A DNA stretch of 35,933 nucleotides from Spirochaetia bacterium (GTDB lineage Bacteria > Spirochaetota > Spirochaetia > CADAEX01), in assembly GCA_024402405.1 (NCBI GenBank), contig JAKSTW010000014.1, forward strand, positions 1 to 35,933. The letters are read 5' to 3'. The notes under the pieces are model-generated. The model was given only the letters and a program-made list of their open reading frames with translations. It was not told where the DNA came from and did not search any database. Below, in pieces: positions 1,181 through 29,819 of the stretch (positions are counted from its first letter, which is position 1; each line of letters starts with the position of its first letter). The position numbers were made by a program, and so were the translations under genes.

Positions 1181-2701
1181 ATGAAAAGACTATCAGATTT
1201 GCTTGAACATTGTAATTTTTCCCAGATTCATGGAAATACAGATACAGAGATAACAGGAATAACCTACGATTCCAGAAGATGCAGAAAAGGTTGTGCATTC
1301 TTCGCCTTTGACGGAATCCACACTGACGGCTCCAAATTCATAGGCTCTGCCGTGGCAAACGGAGCATCAGCTGTGTTTGTCTCAAAAATGCCTGCTGAGT
1401 TCATTGATGGAATCACCTACATACAGGTGGACAATATAAGGAAAGTAATGTCTGCCCTGTCATCGGCGCTGTATGACGATCCGTCTTCCAGGCTGAAGGT
1501 CATAGGGGTCACAGGCACTGACGGAAAAAGCTCATCAGTATTCTTTCTGTACCAGATGCTGAATATGCTTGGGGAAAAGACAGGATTTCTCTCCACCGTG
1601 GAATACAGCGATGGAAATACGATCCAGAAGAATCCATACAGGCAGTCCACACCGGAATCTTCCGAGATAATGATGATCCTGGATGAAATGGCACGTTCCG
1701 GATGCAGGTATGCCGCACTGGAATCCACATCCCATGGTCTGTCTGAAAGGACCATGAGGCTGGCAGATGTGAAATATCAGGCAGGAATCCTTACCAACAT
1801 CACCCATGAGCATCTTGAGTTCCATGGCACACTGGAGAAATATGCGGATGACAAAGCCAATCTTTTCAGAAAGAGCTCCCAGTTCAATGTGGTGAACTGC
1901 AGTGACAGATTTGCGCCGCACTTTATGGAGGCATCCAAAGTACCGGTCTACGGATATGCACTGTACGGGGACAGAGGAGAACTTCCTGGAGGCAAACCGG
2001 TGCTGTATGCTGACAACATAGCGGCAGACAACAGCGGCACTGCTTTTGATGCAGTATATAATGGAAAGAATTATAAATGCAGAATAAATATACCCGGGCT
2101 TTTCAATGTGGAGAATTTTCTGGGAGTAGCCCTGGCACTCATAAAGATAACAGGATTCCCGCCTGAAAGAATATTCAGTCTGAGCAATGAACTGAAAGCT
2201 GTAAAGGGAAGAATGGAAGTGGTCGATATGGGACAGGATTTTCATCTGATCGTGGATTATGCCCACACACCGGGCGCTTTTCAGAAACTGTTTCCGATGA
2301 TGAAATCCCAGACAGGCAACAGGCTCATAGCCGTGTTCGGATCTGCAGGAGAGAAAGACACGGAGAAAAGAGCCATCCAGGGAGACCTGGCTTCCAGATA
2401 CAGTGATATTCTGATTCTGACAGATGAGGATCCCCGCGGCGAGGACAGCATGAGAATCATAGATGATATCGCATCAGGAATATGCGCTGACTTCGACCGG
2501 AACAACCTGTACAGGATACCGGACAGAACCGAGGCCATACAGAAGGCAATAGAACTGGCAGAACCTGGCGATACTGTGCTGCTGCTGGGCAAAGGACATG
2601 AGTCCACAATAATATATTCACAGGGAAATATTGTCTGGAATGAGAGGGAAACTGCGGAGAAGGCACTGAAAGCCAGACTCAGCTCCGGTCAAAGGAAATA
2701 A
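1181..2701 (+). CDS. murE: UDP-N-acetylmuramyl-tripeptide synthetase (MurE)
   Basis: A 506-residue Mur ligase that adds the third amino acid to UDP-MurNAc-L-Ala-D-Glu in the cytosol. It has the N-terminal UDP-binding domain (GITYDSRR), the ATP loop GVTGTDGKSS, the NITHEHLEFHGT block, the DDKANLF lysine region, DYAHTPGAF and LLGKGHE, giving all three Mur domains at normal length. The third-residue recognition motif reads DEDPR rather than the DNPR typical of meso-diaminopimelate enzymes, so the substrate (diaminopimelate, ornithine or lysine) cannot be assigned from this alone. The frame is open from a TTG at 1145, but that codon is the putative -35 element and the protein family begins near MKRLSDLLEH, so 1181 is chosen. 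The 3' end overlaps the convergent gene by 23 bases. Confidence 0.93.
   Translation: MKRLSDLLEHCNFSQIHGNTDTEITGITYDSRRCRKGCAFFAFDGIHTDGSKFIGSAVANGASAVFVSKMPAEFIDGITYIQVDNIRKVMSALSSALYDDPSSRLKVIGVTGTDGKSSSVFFLYQMLNMLGEKTGFLSTVEYSDGNTIQKNPYRQSTPESSEIMMILDEMARSGCRYAALESTSHGLSERTMRLADVKYQAGILTNITHEHLEFHGTLEKYADDKANLFRKSSQFNVVNCSDRFAPHFMEASKVPVYGYALYGDRGELPGGKPVLYADNIAADNSGTAFDAVYNGKNYKCRINIPGLFNVENFLGVALALIKITGFPPERIFSLSNELKAVKGRMEVVDMGQDFHLIVDYAHTPGAFQKLFPMMKSQTGNRLIAVFGSAGEKDTEKRAIQGDLASRYSDILILTDEDPRGEDSMRIIDDIASGICADFDRNNLYRIPDRTEAIQKAIELAEPGDTVLLLGKGHESTIIYSQGNIVWNERETAEKALKARLSSGQRK
1967..1977 (-). repeat. Dispersed 11-mer CCTCTGTCCCC, inside murE
   Basis: Perfect copy of the RAYT end motif, reading GGGGACAGAGG on the plus strand and encoding Gly-Asp-Arg-Gly in murE. 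It is the only perfect copy outside the RAYT element that lies in this orientation. Confidence 0.9.
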
Positions 2702-6943: not shown

Positions 6944-7959
6944 AATTTCTCCATATCAGCCATAATTCTGCTGACAACCATGAAATACTTACCGGGAAGC
7001 TCTGTCCCCACCTCAACATCATAATAAATGGCTCTGGACAGATAATCATCAGGCACAACTCTGACATGATTCTCATCTGCAAGGGTAATGATCCGCCCGG
7101 CAGTGATTCCCATACCCTTAGCCACAACAACAGGAGCATCAAACTGTCTCTGTCTGTACTGCACTGCCACAGCATATCCATCTTTGCCTGTCAGGACAAA
7201 ATCAGCAGAAGAGACATTAGCAGCCTTGTTGGAACCGATGACTGCGGCCATCCGCTTTTTCAGGTCATTCTTGATCCGGCTGTCTCCTTCCAGCATCTTG
7301 TTCTCTTCTTTTATCTCCTGCCGCGTCATTTTAAGTGAATCATGCAGAAACTTACGCTGCATAAGATAATCAGGAAATGCAAGTACAAGAAATACAATTC
7401 CAATTTCCAGTGTCATCATCAGCACAGCAATAAAAACCAGTCGGAAGGCAGATGCAGGCTCAATGGTCACCAGCGACAGAAATTTATCAAGATCAAACCG
7501 GATATTTATGAAAACAACAGCAGCAACCAGAAGAATTTTTACAATATTTCTGCATACAGTATAAAAAACTACGCCTGAGTCTCTTTTTCCAGCGAGCCGT
7601 CCCACATCAAAAGCCATCCGTTTCGGACTGAAGACAAAACCCTTCTGCACCAGCTGAGAAATCAGCGCAGCAGCAAAAGCAACGGCAGCAGCAGGGATCA
7701 CCAGTCTCATCATATACTGCAGACCGGCAGAAAAAGCGCCTGACAGTCCAAAATCACCGGAAGAGAGATCATAGAAATGAGTGAACATGGCTGAAATGAT
7801 CCCGGCAGAATATCGCCACATAGCAGCAATGATTCCGGAAATGAAAAGCAGCATAAGCCCGGTACCCAATTCAGGCGTGAATGTGGAATGACCTGTCTCA
7901 GCAGCTTTCCTGATGCGATGCGGTGTAGGTCTCTCAGTGCGGAGTTCAGCGTCACTCAT
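6940..7959 (-). CDS. flhB: Flagellar export switch protein FlhB, lacking the NPTH cleavage motif
   Basis: 339 residues: a charged N-terminus (TERPTPHRIRKAAETG), about four membrane helices (residues 30-215), then the cytoplasmic switch domain. FlhB normally cuts itself between Asn and Pro of NPTH, letting export change from rod/hook to filament proteins. Here the aligned segment ADFVLTGKDGYAVAVQY reads GKDG where NPTH should be (7177-7188), so that self-cleavage cannot occur. The rest of the domain is well kept (DAPVVVAKGMG, YYDVEVGTELPGKYF). The start is set at 7959, not at the frame opening at 7986, because AGGAGGT lies just before this ATG and it overlaps the fliR stop as ATGA. Confidence 0.94.
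   Translation of the reverse strand: MSDAELRTERPTPHRIRKAAETGHSTFTPELGTGLMLLFISGIIAAMWRYSAGIISAMFTHFYDLSSGDFGLSGAFSAGLQYMMRLVIPAAAVAFAAALISQLVQKGFVFSPKRMAFDVGRLAGKRDSGVVFYTVCRNIVKILLVAAVVFINIRFDLDKFLSLVTIEPASAFRLVFIAVLMMTLEIGIVFLVLAFPDYLMQRKFLHDSLKMTRQEIKEENKMLEGDSRIKNDLKKRMAAVIGSNKAANVSSADFVLTGKDGYAVAVQYRQRQFDAPVVVAKGMGITAGRIITLADENHVRVVPDDYLSRAIYYDVEVGTELPGKYFMVVSRIMADMEKL
7000..7009 (+). repeat. Dispersed motif CTCTGTCCCC, inside flhB
   Basis: Perfect 10-mer core of the RAYT end motif (the preceding base is G, so it is not the full 11-mer). Read on the coding strand it encodes part of VGTEL. Confidence 0.9.
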
Positions 7960-9028: not shown

Positions 9029-9802
9029 TCACATCACAAAACTGTTTATTATCTGTCCGGCAATAAGATTCCATCCATCGACCAGCACAAACAGCATTAT
9101 TTTAAAAGGCAATGATATCATCACAGGAGGAACCATTATCATGCCCATGGACATCAGTACAGATGCCACCACCATATCTATGATAATAAACGGAATAAAA
9201 ATAAGTATTCCTATTTTGAAAGCCACGGTAAGCTCATTCAGGACAAAGGCAGGAATCAGCACATAAGTAGGCACCTCAGAGAGATTGGCAGGCTTAGGCA
9301 GACCGCGGAGACTCATAAACAGCCTTATGTTCTCAGGATGGGACTTCATCTGTTCATACATAAAGATACGCAGCGGCTGTTCAGCCCTGGAAAACATCTC
9401 TGAACCGGAAATCTCTCCGGCTGAATATGGTTTGAACGAATCATTATAAATGTTCTCAAAGACCGGCCACATGATGAACAGAGTCAGAAAAAGGGCAATT
9501 CCCATAAGGACCTGATTGGGCGGGACTGCCTGTAATGAAAGAGAACGCTTTATGAAATCAAAGACCACTGCAATTCTGATAAATGATGTGGTCAGCAGCA
9601 GTATTGACGGTGCCAGGGCAATTATTCCGATAAGCAGCAGAAGCTTCACGGATGATGCCACCTCCTGATTGGAACCGCCGTCCCTGACAGAAATATCAAT
9701 GAATGGAATTCCATGCTCCTCTGTCCCCGATGTCTCTTCGGCAGGAAGCAGATCAACTGAAAATAAAAAGATCAGAAGGAATACAAAGACAAATCTTTTC
9801 AT
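9029..9802 (-). CDS. fliP: Flagellar export gate protein FliP
   Basis: 257 residues with a cleavable signal peptide (FVFVFLLIFLFSVDLLPAEE) and four membrane helices. The family blocks are all present: TTSFIRIAVVFDFIKRSL, PPNQVLMGIALFLT, PAFVLNELTVAFKIGIL and SMGMIMVPPVMISLPFK. FliP forms the pentameric heart of the export channel. It overlaps fliO by four bases (ATGA). Confidence 0.96.
   Translation of the reverse strand: MKRFVFVFLLIFLFSVDLLPAEETSGTEEHGIPFIDISVRDGGSNQEVASSVKLLLLIGIIALAPSILLLTTSFIRIAVVFDFIKRSLSLQAVPPNQVLMGIALFLTLFIMWPVFENIYNDSFKPYSAGEISGSEMFSRAEQPLRIFMYEQMKSHPENIRLFMSLRGLPKPANLSEVPTYVLIPAFVLNELTVAFKIGILIFIPFIIIDMVVASVLMSMGMIMVPPVMISLPFKIMLFVLVDGWNLIAGQIINSFVM
9718..9728 (+). 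repeat. Dispersed 11-mer CCTCTGTCCCC, inside fliP
   Basis: Perfect copy lying just after the predicted signal peptide of FliP, where it encodes part of SGTEE. This is a poorly conserved part of the protein. Confidence 0.9.
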
Positions 9803-16636: not shown

Positions 16637-17629
16637 TCATCTGGCAGCAGTGAATCTGTCCTTCAGTCCGGAAGTTATGATGACTCTATTATCCCTGGTG
16701 ATAAAAACTCCCTCTGTCCCCGGCAGACTCTCCAGGAATGCCTTTCCTTCTTCAAGTCCCATGGCAAAAACTGTAGTCGACAGCGCATCTCCGGCTGCGG
16801 AAACATCAGTTATGATGCTGACTCCGGCCAGCTCATTATCCACAGGATAACCGGTCCTGGTATCAAATATATGATGATACTTCATGCCGCCCTGCTCAAA
16901 AAAGCGTTCATAAATACCTGAGGTGACCACTGTCCCCTCTTTCATGGAGACAATTCCAATGTAGTTGCCTCGAGGTTTGAAAGGATTCTGGATCCCGACA
17001 CGGAAATCAGAGCCATCAGGCTTTTTCCCGAAGACCAATATATTTCCTCCAAGATCCAGAATTCCCCCTGACACATGCTCTTTCCTGAGAAAATCACAGA
17101 TAAGGTCACCGATATATCCTTTGGCAATTCCCCCAAGATCTACAGCAGATTCTCTCTCTTCCAGAAATGCGGTCTGTTTCTCTCCATCCAATATCAGCCT
17201 GTGGTAATCCACATGGGAAAGAGTTTTCTGAAGCAATGCACTGTCTGGAACCGCAGCATGGTCAGTGCCAATGCCCCACAGCTCTGTCACCGGTGCAATG
17301 GTTATATCAAAAAGACCACGGGAAATATCACCGTACCGCAATCCCATGTCAAGAAGGGAATATGCAATATCGGACATGGCCACAGGAGCCACACCGGCAT
17401 TTCTGTTCAAATCGGAGATCTCACTGTCAGGAATATTCCGACTGAGGATATTCTCATATTCTCTCATACGGGAAAAAACTTCAGGCAGCAGACTTTCCTT
17501 ATCAGGATCATAAAGGGTAACAGAACATACAGTACCCAAAGCAAAATCAGTCATGCGGACAGGTTCAGCCTTGCCGGCACATCCGGCAAGAAAGATAACA
17601 ACGATAAGAAGTACAGACACTCTTTTCAT
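16637..17629 (-). CDS. apbE: FAD:protein FMN transferase (ApbE), lipoprotein
   Basis: 330 residues with a lipoprotein signal peptide (LIVVIFLAGC, lipobox LAGC at about 13-16), so it is anchored on the periplasmic face. ApbE covalently attaches FMN to Thr/Ser of target proteins such as RnfG/NqrC subunits, using FAD and Mg2+. Conserved blocks: FALGTVCSVTLYD, DLGGIAKGYIGD, DLGGNILVFGKKPDG, YHHIFDTRTGYPV and DVSAAGDALSTTVFAMG, with the metal-binding Asp/Thr. No obvious flavinylation target is encoded in the window. It lies five bases after the DUF4349 gene in the same operon. A small hairpin (CTGCCA/TGGCAG, 16630-16647) covers its stop codon. Confidence 0.94.
   Translation of the reverse strand: MKRVSVLLIVVIFLAGCAGKAEPVRMTDFALGTVCSVTLYDPDKESLLPEVFSRMREYENILSRNIPDSEISDLNRNAGVAPVAMSDIAYSLLDMGLRYGDISRGLFDITIAPVTELWGIGTDHAAVPDSALLQKTLSHVDYHRLILDGEKQTAFLEERESAVDLGGIAKGYIGDLICDFLRKEHVSGGILDLGGNILVFGKKPDGSDFRVGIQNPFKPRGNYIGIVSMKEGTVVTSGIYERFFEQGGMKYHHIFDTRTGYPVDNELAGVSIITDVSAAGDALSTTVFAMGLEEGKAFLESLPGTEGVFITRDNRVIITSGLKDRFTAAR
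16711..16721 (+). repeat. Dispersed 11-mer CCTCTGTCCCC, inside apbE
   Basis: Perfect copy; on the coding strand it encodes PGTEG near the C-terminus of ApbE. Confidence 0.9.
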
Positions 17630-17633
17630 AGGA

Positions 17634-18626
17634 TCAGAGCTCTGAAACCAAAGTCATGATTTCAGGAATATATTCAGCAAAAATATCTTTCTCGCCACCG
17701 GCTGCAATGACAGACAAAATTTTACCATTCACACGGAAAGCAGTCATATATGTATATGCCATATCATATCCAGACACACTCCATTTAAAGCATGACACCT
17801 TTCCGCCGGCAGCATCTATCTCCTGGAAATCCTCCAGGCTGTAGCCAAGCCCAAGGAAATTTTTCTCCAGAATATTTTTCCAGAATTCCGCATCTTTCTC
17901 AGGATAATTCTTAACTTTTTTCTTTATGAATCTGCATCCGTCAGGACTGACACTGGTATAAAAGTTTCCGGATCTTGCCTCCAGAGCAAAGCCAGATGGG
18001 ATAATTTCAATATGCTTAGAAAATTCAGGTCTGGTCTCAGATGCCCTCCAGTTCAGGAATTTATCGAAAGTCATATCATCTATCCAGTCAAATACGATTC
18101 CTCTGTCCCCACCAGACACAACAGCGGATGTCTCAAGAGCCACAGAGAACAATGCCATCCGGCCTTCTTCCTGAAGCATATTTATCTGTCCCTGAAGGGC
18201 CTCAATCTCACGCACCAGTGCAAGCATGGCTTTTTCCACCTCCAGAGCAGATGCATAATCTGCATTCCGGAGAATACCTGAATAGCGGTCCAGCAGCTTT
18301 TTCTTCTCAGCCAGATTATTCTGCAGTTCCATAAGCCTGGAAGAAGTGTCAGAAGTGCTGATATTGGAATAAAGCACTTTGGAACTGTGCTTCTCCACAA
18401 GATCACGGAATGAAGCGACCTGATCCGCAGGAATTCTGAGATTCATAACAGAAGCATTATAATAAACCACATATCCGCCACATTTTTCACACTGTTCAGC
18501 AAGATATCCAGTGCTTCTGCCGGCATCATATACTTTTATGGACATATCCACTCTGACTGATTCAGAGGCAAATGAGACGGCAATACATGACAAAAGCAGA
18601 ATAACTGATAAAACTATTTTTTTCAT
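17634..18626 (-). CDS. Exported DUF4349-family protein with extra C-terminal domain
   Basis: 330 residues with a cleavable signal peptide (IVLSVILLLSCIAVSFASES). Residues 24-180 resemble DUF4349: a strand-rich part (VRVDMSIKVYDAGRSTGYLAEQ, LRIPADQVASFRDLVEKH) and a long coiled coil (SRLMELQNNLAEKKKLLDRY to EALQGQINMLQEEGR). Usual DUF4349 proteins end in a membrane helix; here the last 130 residues form a soluble domain with FWKNILEKNF. The same kind of tail is found in the next gene upstream, so the two are tandem paralogues. Function is unknown; an envelope role is inferred from export. It overlaps the upstream gene by four bases. Confidence 0.78.
   Translation of the reverse strand: MKKIVLSVILLLSCIAVSFASESVRVDMSIKVYDAGRSTGYLAEQCEKCGGYVVYYNASVMNLRIPADQVASFRDLVEKHSSKVLYSNISTSDTSSRLMELQNNLAEKKKLLDRYSGILRNADYASALEVEKAMLALVREIEALQGQINMLQEEGRMALFSVALETSAVVSGGDRGIVFDWIDDMTFDKFLNWRASETRPEFSKHIEIIPSGFALEARSGNFYTSVSPDGCRFIKKKVKNYPEKDAEFWKNILEKNFLGLGYSLEDFQEIDAAGGKVSCFKWSVSGYDMAYTYMTAFRVNGKILSVIAAGGEKDIFAEYIPEIMTLVSEL
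18100..18110 (+). repeat. Dispersed 11-mer CCTCTGTCCCC, inside first DUF4349 gene
   Basis: Perfect copy; on the coding strand it encodes GGDRGI in the segment after the coiled coil. Confidence 0.9.
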
Positions 18627-19729
18627 CTGATCCTGAATCCCTCCAGTGTGGCGATCACAGCATCATGATCCTGTTGGAAGCTGACATCATCAGGGAAATA
18701 AGCCTCCACAACATAGAGAAGATTTCCCCGGTTAACCTCTGTCCCCACAAAATATCTCATGCTGCCGGATGTCACAAGAATCCCACGCAAAGTACCTGCC
18801 TCCAGAGTACAGCAATCCTCATACATGGCTGAGAAATGATATTCCAGAGCTCTCTGCCAGAAAAGGCTGTCCCCTTTAGGAAAATTTCTTACAGATCCGA
18901 CACGCAGCTGAGTACCGCATGAGGATTCCGCATAAAACGAGCGCATTCTGTCCAAGACGCCGAAAGTTTCCGGAGCTTTGAGCAGGATACGGCCATAAAG
19001 CCTGTCAGCAGTTATCTCAGCCGGAACCAGTCTCTCTATCCACTCAAACCTGTAAGGCTCAGCAGATACTGATGATATGCTGATAAAATAAATTGTTATA
19101 TCTGCATATGCAGCCTCTCTCTCCATACGGACCATAAGGGCTGATACAGCTTCGATCTCATCCAGGATCTTATCCAGCTCCTTGAGGATCTTCACTTTAT
19201 CACTGGCAGAGGATGCATTATCAAACAGCTTCTCAAGTCGCGCTTTAGTCTCATTCAGCACCCGGAGTCTGGCTTTTGAGTCATAATACGAATCTGTGAT
19301 ATCCTGGCCTGAAATGCTCTCTGACACCACATGCCCCAGGACAAGCAGTCTGTCCAGTGTCTCACGGAAAAGAGCCTGGGGAACTGACACAGAGATGCTG
19401 CACACATCAGAATGGAGCACCTGACCTCCAGTCTCTCTGACAATAGCTGCTGCAGAATCCACCGCCATCTTGCAGTCACGGACCTCAAGAGTACAGTCAG
19501 CACTGTTATGTAATTTTCTGTCCTGCACAGCACCGTTTACTGCCATCTCACTGACAGGAGCAGCTTTAGCCATCATGACAGTTCCTGTGGGACACGGCAT
19601 CTCAGCACAATCGGCACAGACAACGGCCTCTTCCTGCGAAGATGGAAGCTTTCCAGAACATCCAATACACAGTGAAACAGAAAAAATAAATATTAAGAAT
19701 TTAGAGATCGCTTCCTGACACTGCCACAA
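18623..19729 (-). CDS. DUF4349-family lipoprotein with extra C-terminal domain
   Basis: 368 residues. The N-terminus is a lipoprotein signal (LIFIFSVSLCIGC), followed by a Cys-rich stretch (CADCAEMPCP). The DUF4349-like core has LEVRDCKMAVDSAAAIVRE, SVPQALFRETLDRLLVLG and a coiled coil (KARLRVLNETKARLEKLF to EIEAVSALMVRMEREA). The tail (VRNFPKGDSLFWQRALEYHF) parallels that of the downstream gene (KNYPEKDAEFWKNILEKNF). The start is TTG at 19729 with AAGGA eight bases upstream; this overlaps the ACT gene by 29 bases. The two DUF4349 proteins and ApbE look like one exported set, but no known function connects them. Confidence 0.78.
   Translation of the reverse strand: MWQCQEAISKFLIFIFSVSLCIGCSGKLPSSQEEAVVCADCAEMPCPTGTVMMAKAAPVSEMAVNGAVQDRKLHNSADCTLEVRDCKMAVDSAAAIVRETGGQVLHSDVCSISVSVPQALFRETLDRLLVLGHVVSESISGQDITDSYYDSKARLRVLNETKARLEKLFDNASSASDKVKILKELDKILDEIEAVSALMVRMEREAAYADITIYFISISSVSAEPYRFEWIERLVPAEITADRLYGRILLKAPETFGVLDRMRSFYAESSCGTQLRVGSVRNFPKGDSLFWQRALEYHFSAMYEDCCTLEAGTLRGILVTSGSMRYFVGTEVNRGNLLYVVEAYFPDDVSFQQDHDAVIATLEGFRIR
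18736..18746 (+). repeat. Dispersed 11-mer CCTCTGTCCCC, inside second DUF4349 gene
   Basis: Perfect copy, extended to ACCTCTGTCCCCAC as at the RAYT right end; on the coding strand it encodes VGTEVN. Confidence 0.9.
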
Positions 19730-21560: not shown

Positions 21561-22337
21561 ATGCCTGTTTTAAACAAAAGGAACATTGTGATAAGCTGTT
21601 TCAGCCTGCTCTCTATATTCTGTATGCTGGGATTCATAACTTTTCTTCTGTTCCTGTCATCAGATCTCCCTCAGACTTTCATGGAACTGCTGGTACATCC
21701 AAATATCCTGATACCGCTGTCATCAATTCTGTTCTCTTTTTTCTCTGTGTATTTCATAAAAAAATTCTTTATCAGAAATACAAGGGCTGAGGTCTTCTTC
21801 TTTGTCATCTTTCTCCTTTCTCTGAGTTTTGACGGAGTCAGATCCATCATATTCATATTCCAGCTGCTGGTAAAACCTGATATTTATTCAGTATATCTCT
21901 CAAGAATATTGATCTTCGGGAAAATGATGGGTGTATTCTCGCTGCTGTGCTTTTCCATGATGAACATAGAGACAGAGTACAAACCATTTGCAACACTGTG
22001 CAGCTTCGCACTGATAATATCATTCTTCATCGCAGCAATAGTTCCTCTGTCCCCAGTCCGTGCGGCCAGCTCAGTCTACCTTCCAGGCCAGATGATCTTC
22101 AGAAATTCCATCATTCTGCTTATGTTCATAATAATACTGACACTTATATTCAATTATCTGCAGAACAGGAACTGGGAATATCTGAATCTGGCTGTGAGCA
22201 TCCTGCTGATCTTCATAGGCAGCTGGATACTTTTCTTCACAATATCATATCTGTGGGCTTTTCTTGGAATGTGCTTCCTGACCACCGGCACAATATTCGT
22301 GACATACAGAATACACAAGCTCTATCTGTGGTACTGA
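21561..22337 (+). CDS. Multi-pass membrane protein of unknown function
   Basis: 258 residues, mostly hydrophobic, with about seven predicted membrane helices starting at 9-30 (VISCFSLLSIFCMLGFITFL) and ending at 225-245 (LWAFLGMCFLTTGTIFVTY). No enzyme motif or signature is recognised; the seven-helix layout alone resembles sensor membrane modules without the output domain. AAGGAT precedes the ATG, and an AT-rich upstream region contains TATACT (21533-21538) as a possible -10. It stands alone on the plus strand and converges on the polyprenol-kinase-like gene with only two bases between their ends. Phe and Ile are abundant, as expected for a membrane protein. Confidence 0.7.
   Translation: MPVLNKRNIVISCFSLLSIFCMLGFITFLLFLSSDLPQTFMELLVHPNILIPLSSILFSFFSVYFIKKFFIRNTRAEVFFFVIFLLSLSFDGVRSIIFIFQLLVKPDIYSVYLSRILIFGKMMGVFSLLCFSMMNIETEYKPFATLCSFALIISFFIAAIVPLSPVRAASSVYLPGQMIFRNSIILLMFIIILTLIFNYLQNRNWEYLNLAVSILLIFIGSWILFFTISYLWAFLGMCFLTTGTIFVTYRIHKLYLWY
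22044..22054 (+). repeat. Dispersed 11-mer CCTCTGTCCCC, inside the membrane protein gene
   Basis: Perfect copy in a plus-strand gene, so here the motif is read directly and encodes PLSP in a loop between helices. Confidence 0.9.
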
Positions 22338-25148: not shown

Positions 25149-25317
25149 AATCTTACCCTCTTTAACAAAATCAGAATAAAAGACAAGTTGAAGATGTTTT
25201 CAATATATAGTGAGTCATGCACTTTTTGAAGAGCAATTCCTTTTAAAGTAATTAAAAAAAATTTCTGTTTTAATGTTCCATAAAACAACTTGCCAGACTG
25301 AAGCTGGGGACAGAGGA

Positions 25318-25788
25318 TCACAGATCAATAAGCCCTTTCCACCTGGTCATTATCCGCGATATCCCATATCCATAGTCTTCCGCCCTGGCCACCATGCCCG
25401 CCTTGACCGGATTGTTGCCTATATACTCAAATGTTCTCTCGAATGCCATGATCCCTGCTATCACTATGCTTCTGAACCTGTCTGCCCACAGATGTCCGTA
25501 CCGACCGTACTTCCTGTTATACCTGAGCGCAAATACTGAGAATATCCACTGCATCACCTTCGACAGGCTTTCCCCCTCCTCCATCTTCACCATAATATGA
25601 ACATGGTTGTCCATCACCGTTATGTTCTTCACTCTGAACCTGAACTTCTTAACAAATCGGGCTTCCCTCATCACCTCCATGAACATTCTCTTGCTTTCCT
25701 CTGTCCCCAGCAGCATATCTCCTGCAACAACCCTGTTGATTATGTGATACATTCCGCCGTCCACAGTTACTCTGCATCTTCTGCTCAT
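25318..25788 (-). CDS. REP-associated tyrosine transposase (RAYT, Y1/HUH family)
   Basis: 156 residues. The Y1 transposase fold is complete: N-terminal GGMYHIINRVV, the metal-binding HUH motif in MDNHVHIMV, then a C-terminal helix region with YNRKYGRYGHLWADRFRS, EYIGNNPVKAGMV and a Tyr-rich stretch; one of the tyrosines there is the nucleophile. Such enzymes cut and join single-stranded DNA at REP hairpins. The gene has no frameshift and a strong GGAGG before its ATG, so it may be functional. Its base use looks more C/G-rich than that of its neighbours, suggesting acquisition. It is as short as the smallest members of the family. Confidence 0.93.
   Translation of the reverse strand: MSRRCRVTVDGGMYHIINRVVAGDMLLGTEESKRMFMEVMREARFVKKFRFRVKNITVMDNHVHIMVKMEEGESLSKVMQWIFSVFALRYNRKYGRYGHLWADRFRSIVIAGIMAFERTFEYIGNNPVKAGMVARAEDYGYGISRIMTRWKGLIDL
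25698..25708 (+). repeat. Motif CCTCTGTCCCC inside the transposase gene
   Basis: Perfect 11-mer that encodes LGTEE in the transposase itself, in addition to the flanking copies. Confidence 0.9.
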
Positions 25789-25857
25789 ACAACATCCTCC
25801 ATATCTTTAAATCTCTGATGTTATAACGCGCAGAATATCAATTCTGATTCAAATTCC

Positions 25858-25902
25858 AACCTCTGTCCCCACTTATTTTGTTTTTTTATGGGGACAGAGG
25901 TT
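25858..25902. repeat. REP-like palindrome: 13-bp inverted repeat with 19-base loop
   Basis: AACCTCTGTCCCC (25858-25870) and its exact reverse complement GGGGACAGAGGTT (25890-25902), separated by an AT-rich loop. It is the right boundary of the RAYT element and probably the hairpin its transposase recognises. Confidence 0.9.
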
Positions 25903-25920
25903 GCAGAAGGCACAGCAGAC

Positions 25921-25949
25921 AAAAAAAGGCATCCCCAAAGGGATGCCTT
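25921..25949 (-). terminator. Rho-independent terminator of hppA
   Basis: AAGGCATCCC (25926-25935) pairs perfectly with GGGATGCCTT (25940-25949) around a four-base loop. On the minus strand it is followed by a run of seven Ts (25927-25921). It lies 23 bases after the hppA stop. Confidence 0.92.
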
Positions 25950-29378: not shown

Positions 29379-29819
29379 ATGAAATCACGAATATTTTTTA
29401 TTATTTGTGTGTGTTCGATCATCCTGACCGCATGTCAGCCACAGAAAGGATCTCCAGAAATCACATTGAAAATAAATGATGTAGAGTTTACCGCAGAGAT
29501 AGCAGACACTCCTGAACTTCAGGAAAAAGGTCTGATGGACAGAAAAGCTCTGTCCCCGCTGCATGGCATGCTTTTTACCTATAAGTACGATGCAAAAAAA
29601 TCCTTCTGGATGAAAAACACATATATACCTCTGTCCATCGCATTCATCGCATCTGACGGTACCATAAAAGAAATATATGACATGAAACCACTGTCCACAT
29701 CGATCATCAGCTCAAAATTTTCAGTACGCTATGCCCTGGAAGTGAACCAGGGTGAGTTTGAGAAGAACGGGATCTCAGCCGGAGACAGAGTAATATTTCC
29801 GATCAATTTTCCTCGGTAG
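29379..29819 (+). CDS. DUF192-family lipoprotein
   Basis: 146 residues. The N-terminal lipoprotein signal IFFIICVCSIILTAC has lipobox LTAC, then the DUF192 domain (about 28-145): FTAEIADTPELQEKGLMDRK, GMLFTYKYDAKKSFWMKNT, PLSIAFIASDGTIKEIYDM, and the C-terminal YALEVNQGEFEKNGISAGDRV. DUF192 proteins are small exported or membrane-anchored beta proteins of unknown function. All usual motifs are present and the length is typical. It converges on xseB and overlaps it by 17 bases. Confidence 0.9.
   Translation: MKSRIFFIICVCSIILTACQPQKGSPEITLKINDVEFTAEIADTPELQEKGLMDRKALSPLHGMLFTYKYDAKKSFWMKNTYIPLSIAFIASDGTIKEIYDMKPLSTSIISSKFSVRYALEVNQGEFEKNGISAGDRVIFPINFPR
29548..29557 (+). repeat. Dispersed motif CTCTGTCCCC, inside the DUF192 gene
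   Basis: Perfect 10-mer in a plus-strand gene (the preceding base is G); it is read directly and encodes ALSPL. Confidence 0.9.

Follow-up and report, generated by a model that had tools for sequence, protein, structure and literature searches.

The window analysed here is a whole contig of 35,933 nucleotides (C6) of a spirochaete genome (G000; 1.52 Mb in 53 contigs, 96% complete, contamination value given for the assembly 0.06). It holds a small transposase gene bordered by short repeats, and the same short word occurs inside ordinary genes nearby. The locus thus raises the question of what kind of element this is, and how its end word comes to stand in the coding DNA around it.

A mobile TIRYT-like element

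The transposase gene (25318..25788, minus strand) is an intact ORF of 156 aa with GGAGG upstream of its ATG. This agrees with the sequence-only reading, in which a whole transposase with an HUH motif and a ribosome site had been noticed. The protein matches Pfam Y1_Tnp (PF01797) over residues 11–126 with 51.8 bits (cut-off 23) and belongs to that superfamily. The HUH-type histidines H62 and H64, as well as Tyr122, are invariant in five out of five aligned family members; judging from a separate alignment and from Y115F of PMC8266576, Tyr122 is the putative catalytic residue. The TnpA-REP structure 4er8 was matched at E 4.9e-7 with a five-sequence profile, and only at E 0.02 with the single sequence alone. 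The IS200/IS605 profile NF033573 gave 31.1 bits against a cut-off of 55, which places the protein outside that group, and at E 0.001 only Y1_Tnp was found in the 156 residues, with no C-terminal HTH domain. The label RAYT, given to the locus earlier, is right in part: the transposase is intact and of the RAYT type, but the ends are GGGG-type TIRs, as in TIRYTs, and not GTAG-tagged REPs, and the score for the NCBIfam family REP_Tyr_transpos (NF047646) is 76.6 bits, just below the curated cut-off of 80.

Genes with a Y1_Tnp match occur five times in G000 (contigs C2, C4, C6, C12 and C50), and the C4 copy of the element allowed us to set the boundaries of ours by identity. The block common to both extends from about 25297 to 25920 and continues in a T-run to 25927 (element 25297..25927, minus strand; the T-run at the high end is shared with a terminator). 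The element therefore reaches past 25306–25902, the interval originally proposed, which proved too short at both sides. Over roughly 624 bp the aligned C6 and C4 copies show about two changes, both in a hairpin loop, and their flanks are dissimilar. Two near-identical copies with defined ends, the mark of an IS-like element, mean that the element is mobile.

The terminator in question is the intrinsic terminator of the H+-pyrophosphatase gene (25920..25949, minus strand), and the element begins directly 3′ of its T-run. The sequence-only reading had counted an additional hairpin (25926–25949) among the parts of the element. However, a terminator-like hairpin stands at the same place after the H+-pyrophosphatase gene, without any element, in all five congener contigs read, so we assign it to the neighbouring gene and leave it out of the element. 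On C4 as on C6, an intrinsic terminator comes first and the element starts right behind its T-run. With a terminator detector, such a structure was found 5′ of the transposase element in 5/5 G000 cases, all five genes lying 3′ of it, against a background of 10/157 gene starts in the stretches examined, which possibly include the transposases themselves. Among other RAYT loci with enough sequence, only 3/74 had a terminator upstream, compared with 14/925 control gene starts. On these counts, the idea that such elements generally insert downstream of terminators was rejected, and terminator targeting is thus a property of the set in G000.

End motifs and hairpin

The ends of the C6 element carry GGGGACAG, which fits the published TIR motif GGGGWSAS. 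In both C4 and C6 this word is present at the two ends in inverted orientation, as in a TIRYT. The downstream-end copy, GGGGACAGAGG, was located by a motif scan at 25306..25316 (plus strand). At the upstream end, copies at 25860 and 25890 fall within a hairpin (25857..25903) whose arms CAACCTCTGTCCCCA (25857–25871) and TGGGGACAGAGGTTG (25889–25903) are 100% complementary over 15 bp and enclose a 17-nt spacer; the perfect palindrome of 13 bp noticed before is real and in fact longer. As single-stranded DNA, this hairpin folds with −17.1 kcal/mol (z −8.5) on one strand and −16.7 kcal/mol (z −7.1) on the other. Folding gave no notable single-stranded hairpin at the single downstream-end copy or at the copy inside the gene (25698..25708, minus strand). 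The latter codes for LGTEE, and the C12 paralogue reads LADSE there with no gap. All four motif positions of the sequence-only reading (both ends, an inverted third copy and a fourth inside the gene) were therefore recovered.

The expectation that related transposases would also be bordered by the palindrome held for four of the five G000 elements, in which upstream inverted pairs are present (C4, C6, C50 and C12, the last with arms about 100 bp apart), but not for C2, where a single motif copy stands at either side and both point the same way. At the motifs of the five G000 elements, inspection by eye showed no conserved GT[AG]G foot of the kind that flanks REP palindromes. One C6 arm does have a GTGG string, which is missing in C4.

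A cloud of end words in neighbouring genes

Allowing two mismatches at most, AACCTCTGTCCCC has 18 matches in the window where 0.63 were expected, and none of 100 shuffles reached 18. The core GGGGACAGAG occurs 92 times in G000, while its reversed control occurs once. The stretches examined hold 71 of these 92 copies. Of these, 16 are no farther than 400 bp from one of the five transposase ORFs; among the other 55, the non-element copies, 50 fall in ORFs with a length of 100 aa or more and 5 do not. Genic copies are mostly in sense orientation (44 sense to 10 antisense, with the transposase-internal copies of C4 and C6 included as two sense ones), although some of the ORFs counted are short and may be spurious (e.g. 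C5:28574-28876). Sense copies read GTE (24), GDR (11) and GQS/GQR (9).

According to Pfam, the genes with copies include those for a Mur ligase, FlhB, FliP, ApbE, D-Ala-D-Ala ligase, chorismate synthase, EPSP synthase, 3-dehydroquinate synthase, ketoacyl synthase, SpoU methylase and phosphoglycerate mutase. Within the window, sense copies are found in the Mur ligase gene (1967..1977, plus strand) and, on the minus strand, in flhB (7000..7009, GAGC type), fliP (9718..9728), apbE (16711..16721, in place in 6/6 congener alignments), a 330-aa gene (18100..18110) and a 368-aa gene (18736..18746). Two further minus-strand copies are antisense to their genes and in place: one in a 258-aa gene (22044..22054) and one of GAGC type in a 146-aa gene (29548..29557), where 7–8 of 10 bases differ from relatives. 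The presence of an internal copy together with dispersed genic copies had been called unusual. Both are there, and the genic copies are our main result, but neither alone is new, since intragenic REPs and REPs in tnpA genes are already described in PMC3733652 and PMC6006769.

Across 87 cloud copies from G000, the informative positions of the word run from about −1 to +10 and no farther (R-GGGACAGA-G-S-W). The sets at other loci, of 11 to 31 copies each, have one or two more informative positions and are noisier. What is repeated is therefore one word, about 13 nt long, and not a hairpin or an element end. As a separate observation, a TaqI/Eco57I-like N6 methyltransferase gene that adjoins the C2 transposase (C2:36737-38671, L047) contains three motif copies.

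Clouds are local and match the nearby element

No Y1_Tnp match was found in six congeners and four further family members, and these genomes also lack the excess of words: GGGGACAGAG occurs 4–10 times in the congeners (reversed controls 2–7) and 0–3 times in the further family members (controls 2–6). Where a transposase is present, copies gather around it. Counting only copies more than 400 bp from a transposase ORF, 27/76 occurrences of GGGGACAGAG in G000 and 18/65 in G011, a member of another family, lie within 10 kb of a transposase; for GGGACAGAGC the respective values are 30/45, 17/66 and 19/41 in the genomes of L142, L185 and L160. Such territories make up about 0.6–6% of each genome, as estimated from genome size (for G060–G062 one known transposase per genome was counted), and the binomial tails are 6e-14 or lower in the five genomes. 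Twelve arbitrary stretches (L221-L232) from the genomes of L142, L185 and L160 have only 0 to 2 copies of GGGACAGA each (0–0.22 per kb), against 32 in L142, which is 19 kb long. Three stretches picked because they hold motif copies (L233-L235) gave 0.30, 1.75 and 0.38 per kb.

The clouds also follow the type of the local ends. In the clouds around the C4 and C6 elements (GAGG ends), GGGGACAGAG is followed by G nine times and by C once, whereas around the C2 element (GAGC ends) the counts are 0 and 5 (Fisher p = 0.002). The C12 element, whose ends are of both types, has a mixed cloud.

The association is not complete. The C50 element has no cloud, the third G011 transposase has no copy of the word on its contig, and inside 10 kb of a transposase the density is nearly flat with distance, with no clear decay. 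Moreover, there is no recognised transposase within 10 kb of 49 of the 76 non-element copies in G000, and some of these copies form tight clusters: C36:1.8-5.0k (L046), which spans the 3-dehydroquinate, EPSP and chorismate synthase genes, C5:28.6-28.9k (L051), C51:8.3-10.2k (L050), C40 (L049), C2:51.8-52.5k and C52:33k. Six RAYT queries gave no match in L046, L049, L050 and L051. In another genome, G061, contig C89 (L234) has 11 copies of GGGACAGA in 6.3 kb, again with no match to six RAYT queries.

Two other accounts were considered and rejected. The region is not a foreign island, as the neighbouring genes examined are ordinary and are matched in the same order in congeners. Nor is the word a genome-wide uptake or Chi-like word, as its copies concentrate around transposases and lack the spread of an uptake system.

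Similar clouds at other spirochaete loci

Of the 99 RAYT loci confirmed in our collection of named genomes, 80 were retained, all from records titled as spirochaetes. De novo counts of 8-mers put variants of one word on top in many of them (GGGACAGAGC, GGGACAGACC, GGGACGGAGG, GTGTCAGAC and GTGCCAGAC). A cloud test (z of at least 6 and at least six copies for one of six dialect words) was passed by 32/80 loci, and in 23 of these at least five copies are farther than 400 bp from the gene. It was passed by 0/21 congener stretches of at least 4 kb and by 1/7 transposase-less G000 stretches (L046 on C36); choosing the best of six words favours detection, and the 21 control stretches (4–15.5 kb) are shorter than many loci. 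The other 48 loci fail, some of them on short contigs. A stricter test, based on words found twice beside the gene, discriminates weakly: z exceeded 5 in 11/74 loci against 61/1145 control windows, and 8 in 8 loci against 41 windows.

Both in G000 and in the pooled RAYT loci, copies are sense and antisense and fall in several frames. The pooled frame counts are inflated by L165:14409-15125, and perhaps also by L195 and L217. The stretch in L165, with 13 copies, consists of densely packed GTGTCAGAC, GTGCCAGAC and GGGTCAGAC units; taken for one ORF, it resembles a repeat array more than a gene and should not count as genic. A different repeat was seen in the congener contigs L098 (13.5 kb) and L100 (11 kb), where the palindrome CCTTAAGG gives 14 and 10 counts, respectively; as both strands were counted, the number of places is half of that.

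In-place change and insertion

In comparison with congener orthologues, 13 of 20 sites (11 genes) align without gaps, and 7 lie in gaps or unaligned parts. These alignments have about 45–90% protein identity, so an insertion compensated by a deletion could pass as an in-place change. The in-place set is limited to genes with suitable relatives: murE, flhB, fliP and two other genes of the window have no congener orthologue in the stretches examined, and the ketoacyl-synthase sites were left out because only one distant homologue was available. Examples of in-place sites are VPKSEEEK to VPGTEEEK in a radical-SAM protein, SGVEAVFIT to PGTEGVFIT in ApbE and MGTD to MGTE in the SpoU methylase, as well as the copy inside the transposase itself (LADSE in C12, LGTEE in C6). 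At in-place sites, 63 of 130 bases differ from relatives (sum of site means), somewhat more than the 49 expected from the flanks. The Ddl and IorA sites differ by only 1–4 bases and may be chance matches. By eye, the identity table gives no clear sign of faster evolution of motif-bearing genes.

A second source of evidence is the pair of loci L154 and L183 (86% identical). Of 11 sites at some distance from the gene, 7 are conserved where 3.3 are expected (p 0.02). Of the four non-conserved sites, one falls within an indel and three differ by substitution, among them a switch from ACGGAG to ACAGAG. L183 has tandem AGCTTTGGGGACAG units opposite L154:2935, which the other species lacks.

Other observations point to insertion. 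In another alignment, 6/19 sites overlap G000-specific insertions, compared with 225/10164 residues overall. Doublets spaced by less than 80 nt favour multiples of three (35/69). The PrmC gene of L160 (L160:1797-2876, minus strand) contains seven copies of GGGACAGAG, most of them in a motif-rich in-frame insertion of the methyltransferase domain, which by eye is roughly 75 aa long.

What makes the word accumulate

We consider it probable, if far from settled, that a mobile TIRYT-like element is at work here whose transposase, acting mainly in cis, makes its 10–13 nt end word accumulate, in coding DNA too, over the tens of kilobases around it. The match of dialects, the locality of the clouds and the background level in congeners point to the transposase as the cause. 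The recurrence of clouds around related spirochaete transposases suggests that the enzyme spreads the word locally without destroying genes. As for the chemistry, TnpA-REP enzymes cleave at C|T beside REPs, join strands again and might also prime synthesis (PMC8266576), and it is from this cleavage and strand transfer that we infer nicking and rejoining. The transposase would nick single-stranded DNA at the end word, and motif-bearing single strands or short oligomers might then be copied or pasted locally. Genic copies would persist only where the protein tolerates Gly-Thr-Glu, Gly-Asp-Arg or Gly-Gln-Ser, or a short in-frame insertion.

A bolder proposal, which we put forward tentatively and hold to be rather doubtful, is word homing: a cis-acting HUH transposase would convert partly matching 10–13 nt sites in neighbouring core genes into its own word, in place and with no insertion, so that selfish DNA would act as a local rewriter of host coding sequence. 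The opposite course, in which only short REP- or MITE-like motif units are inserted locally, those in frame survive and decay leaves the single word, is favoured by the overlap with G000-specific insertions (6/19 against 225/10164), the PrmC insertion at L160, the doublet spacing (35/69 multiples of three) and the single L154/L183 site within an indel. Nevertheless, 13 of 20 sites are gap-free against congeners, nothing is conserved beyond about 13 nt in the 87 G000 copies, and three of the four non-conserved L154/L183 sites differ by substitution alone, which makes insertion as the sole process unlikely. Causality might also run in reverse, the word being locally enriched for another reason and the element inserting or being retained in motif-rich neighbourhoods. 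This would account for the transposase-less clusters in G000 (among which L046 passes the cloud test) and on G061 C89. It would also suit the near-identity of the C4 and C6 elements, both of which have clouds, as at least one of these insertions may be too young for a cloud to have formed by slow substitution. On the other hand, the RAYT-free congener stretches that were compared hold the syntenic genes and no cloud, the dialect of a cloud tracks the local element, and the G000 insertion points are terminator T-runs and not motif copies; we regard this order of events as improbable, though a little less so than insertion on its own.

Two further accounts remain. The word might be a signal selected by the host (a DNA uptake word, a Chi-like site, transposase decoys or a regulatory site) that lies near the gene by chance. 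Single words of 10–13 nt in permissive codons do resemble uptake words, and the conservation of 7 of 11 L154/L183 sites would fit such selection, but the copies are uneven, concentrated round transposases in five genomes and at background level in congeners, and we deem a host signal very unlikely. Chance, codon bias or an assembly or contamination artefact seems hardly credible. It is true that the word codes for unremarkable residues (GTE, GDR, GQS) with a sense bias of 44:10, and that the Ddl and IorA sites are close to their relatives. However, 92 copies face a single one of the reversed control, congeners are at background, several frames and both strands are used, the contamination value is low, and the gene neighbourhoods are common to congeners.

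If our preferred reading of a transposase acting in cis is correct, clouds matched to the local enzyme in housekeeping genes would be a countable footprint of RAYT-type repeat multiplication, with orthologues in transposase-free congeners as the "before" state. Should its in-place part also be true, the sequences of host proteins across tens of kilobases would be shaped by a mobile element that does not itself insert there. Surveys of codon usage, uptake words and regulatory motifs should watch for such clouds.

Comparison with known systems

Gene-embedded clouds of half-TIR words that largely lack insertion and match the local element were not found reported among the open-access papers listed in our searches. 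What is known is local accumulation of REPs near rayt genes and the occurrence of intragenic REPs (PMC2817692, PMC3733652, PMC6006769).

The closest relative of the element is the TIRYT or TIRtron (Di Nocera et al. 2013, PMC3733652), a RAYT-related Y1 transposase with inverted repeats sharing GGGGWSAS, whose TIR repeats can form moderately abundant families of singles, dimers and clusters. A Y1 transposase and GGGGWSAS-type ends, here GGGGACAG, are common to both. Half-TIR words inside neighbouring genes, an in-place origin and a match between cloud and element are not reported for TIRYTs in the sections of that paper bearing on these repeats. TnpA subclass 2.1, with its C-terminal HTH, has been suggested as the home of TIRYTs (PMC6006769), but this extension is absent in the 156-aa transposase described here.

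Intragenic REPs and RPEs, also in tnpA genes, are tolerated in frame and in loops (PMC3733652, PMC6006769). They are similar in that repeats stand in genes, including the transposase gene itself, and differ in being inserted palindromic units, whereas most copies checked here are single words without insertion. REPINs are likewise short repeats attributed to RAYTs; they are extragenic doublets, with only 14 16-mers overlapping genes in SBW25 (Bertels and Rainey 2011, PMC3116915), as opposed to the genic single words in our case.

The over-representation of a short word is shared with DNA uptake sequences, which are short over-represented words spread genome-wide, while the present ones are local to a transposase. 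Uptake sequences are also mentioned in PMC3686654. It is this locality that links our observations to the RAYT/REP systems of Nunvar et al. (2010, PMC2817692). There, REPs gather near rayt, in regions of up to two hundred kb, in Thauera and three marine gammaproteobacteria, and preferential local production of REPs was proposed. These repeats are palindromic REPs, in contrast to the 10–13 nt half-site found here, which is mostly coding and not GTAG-tagged, but in both systems the repeats are concentrated near the transposase gene.
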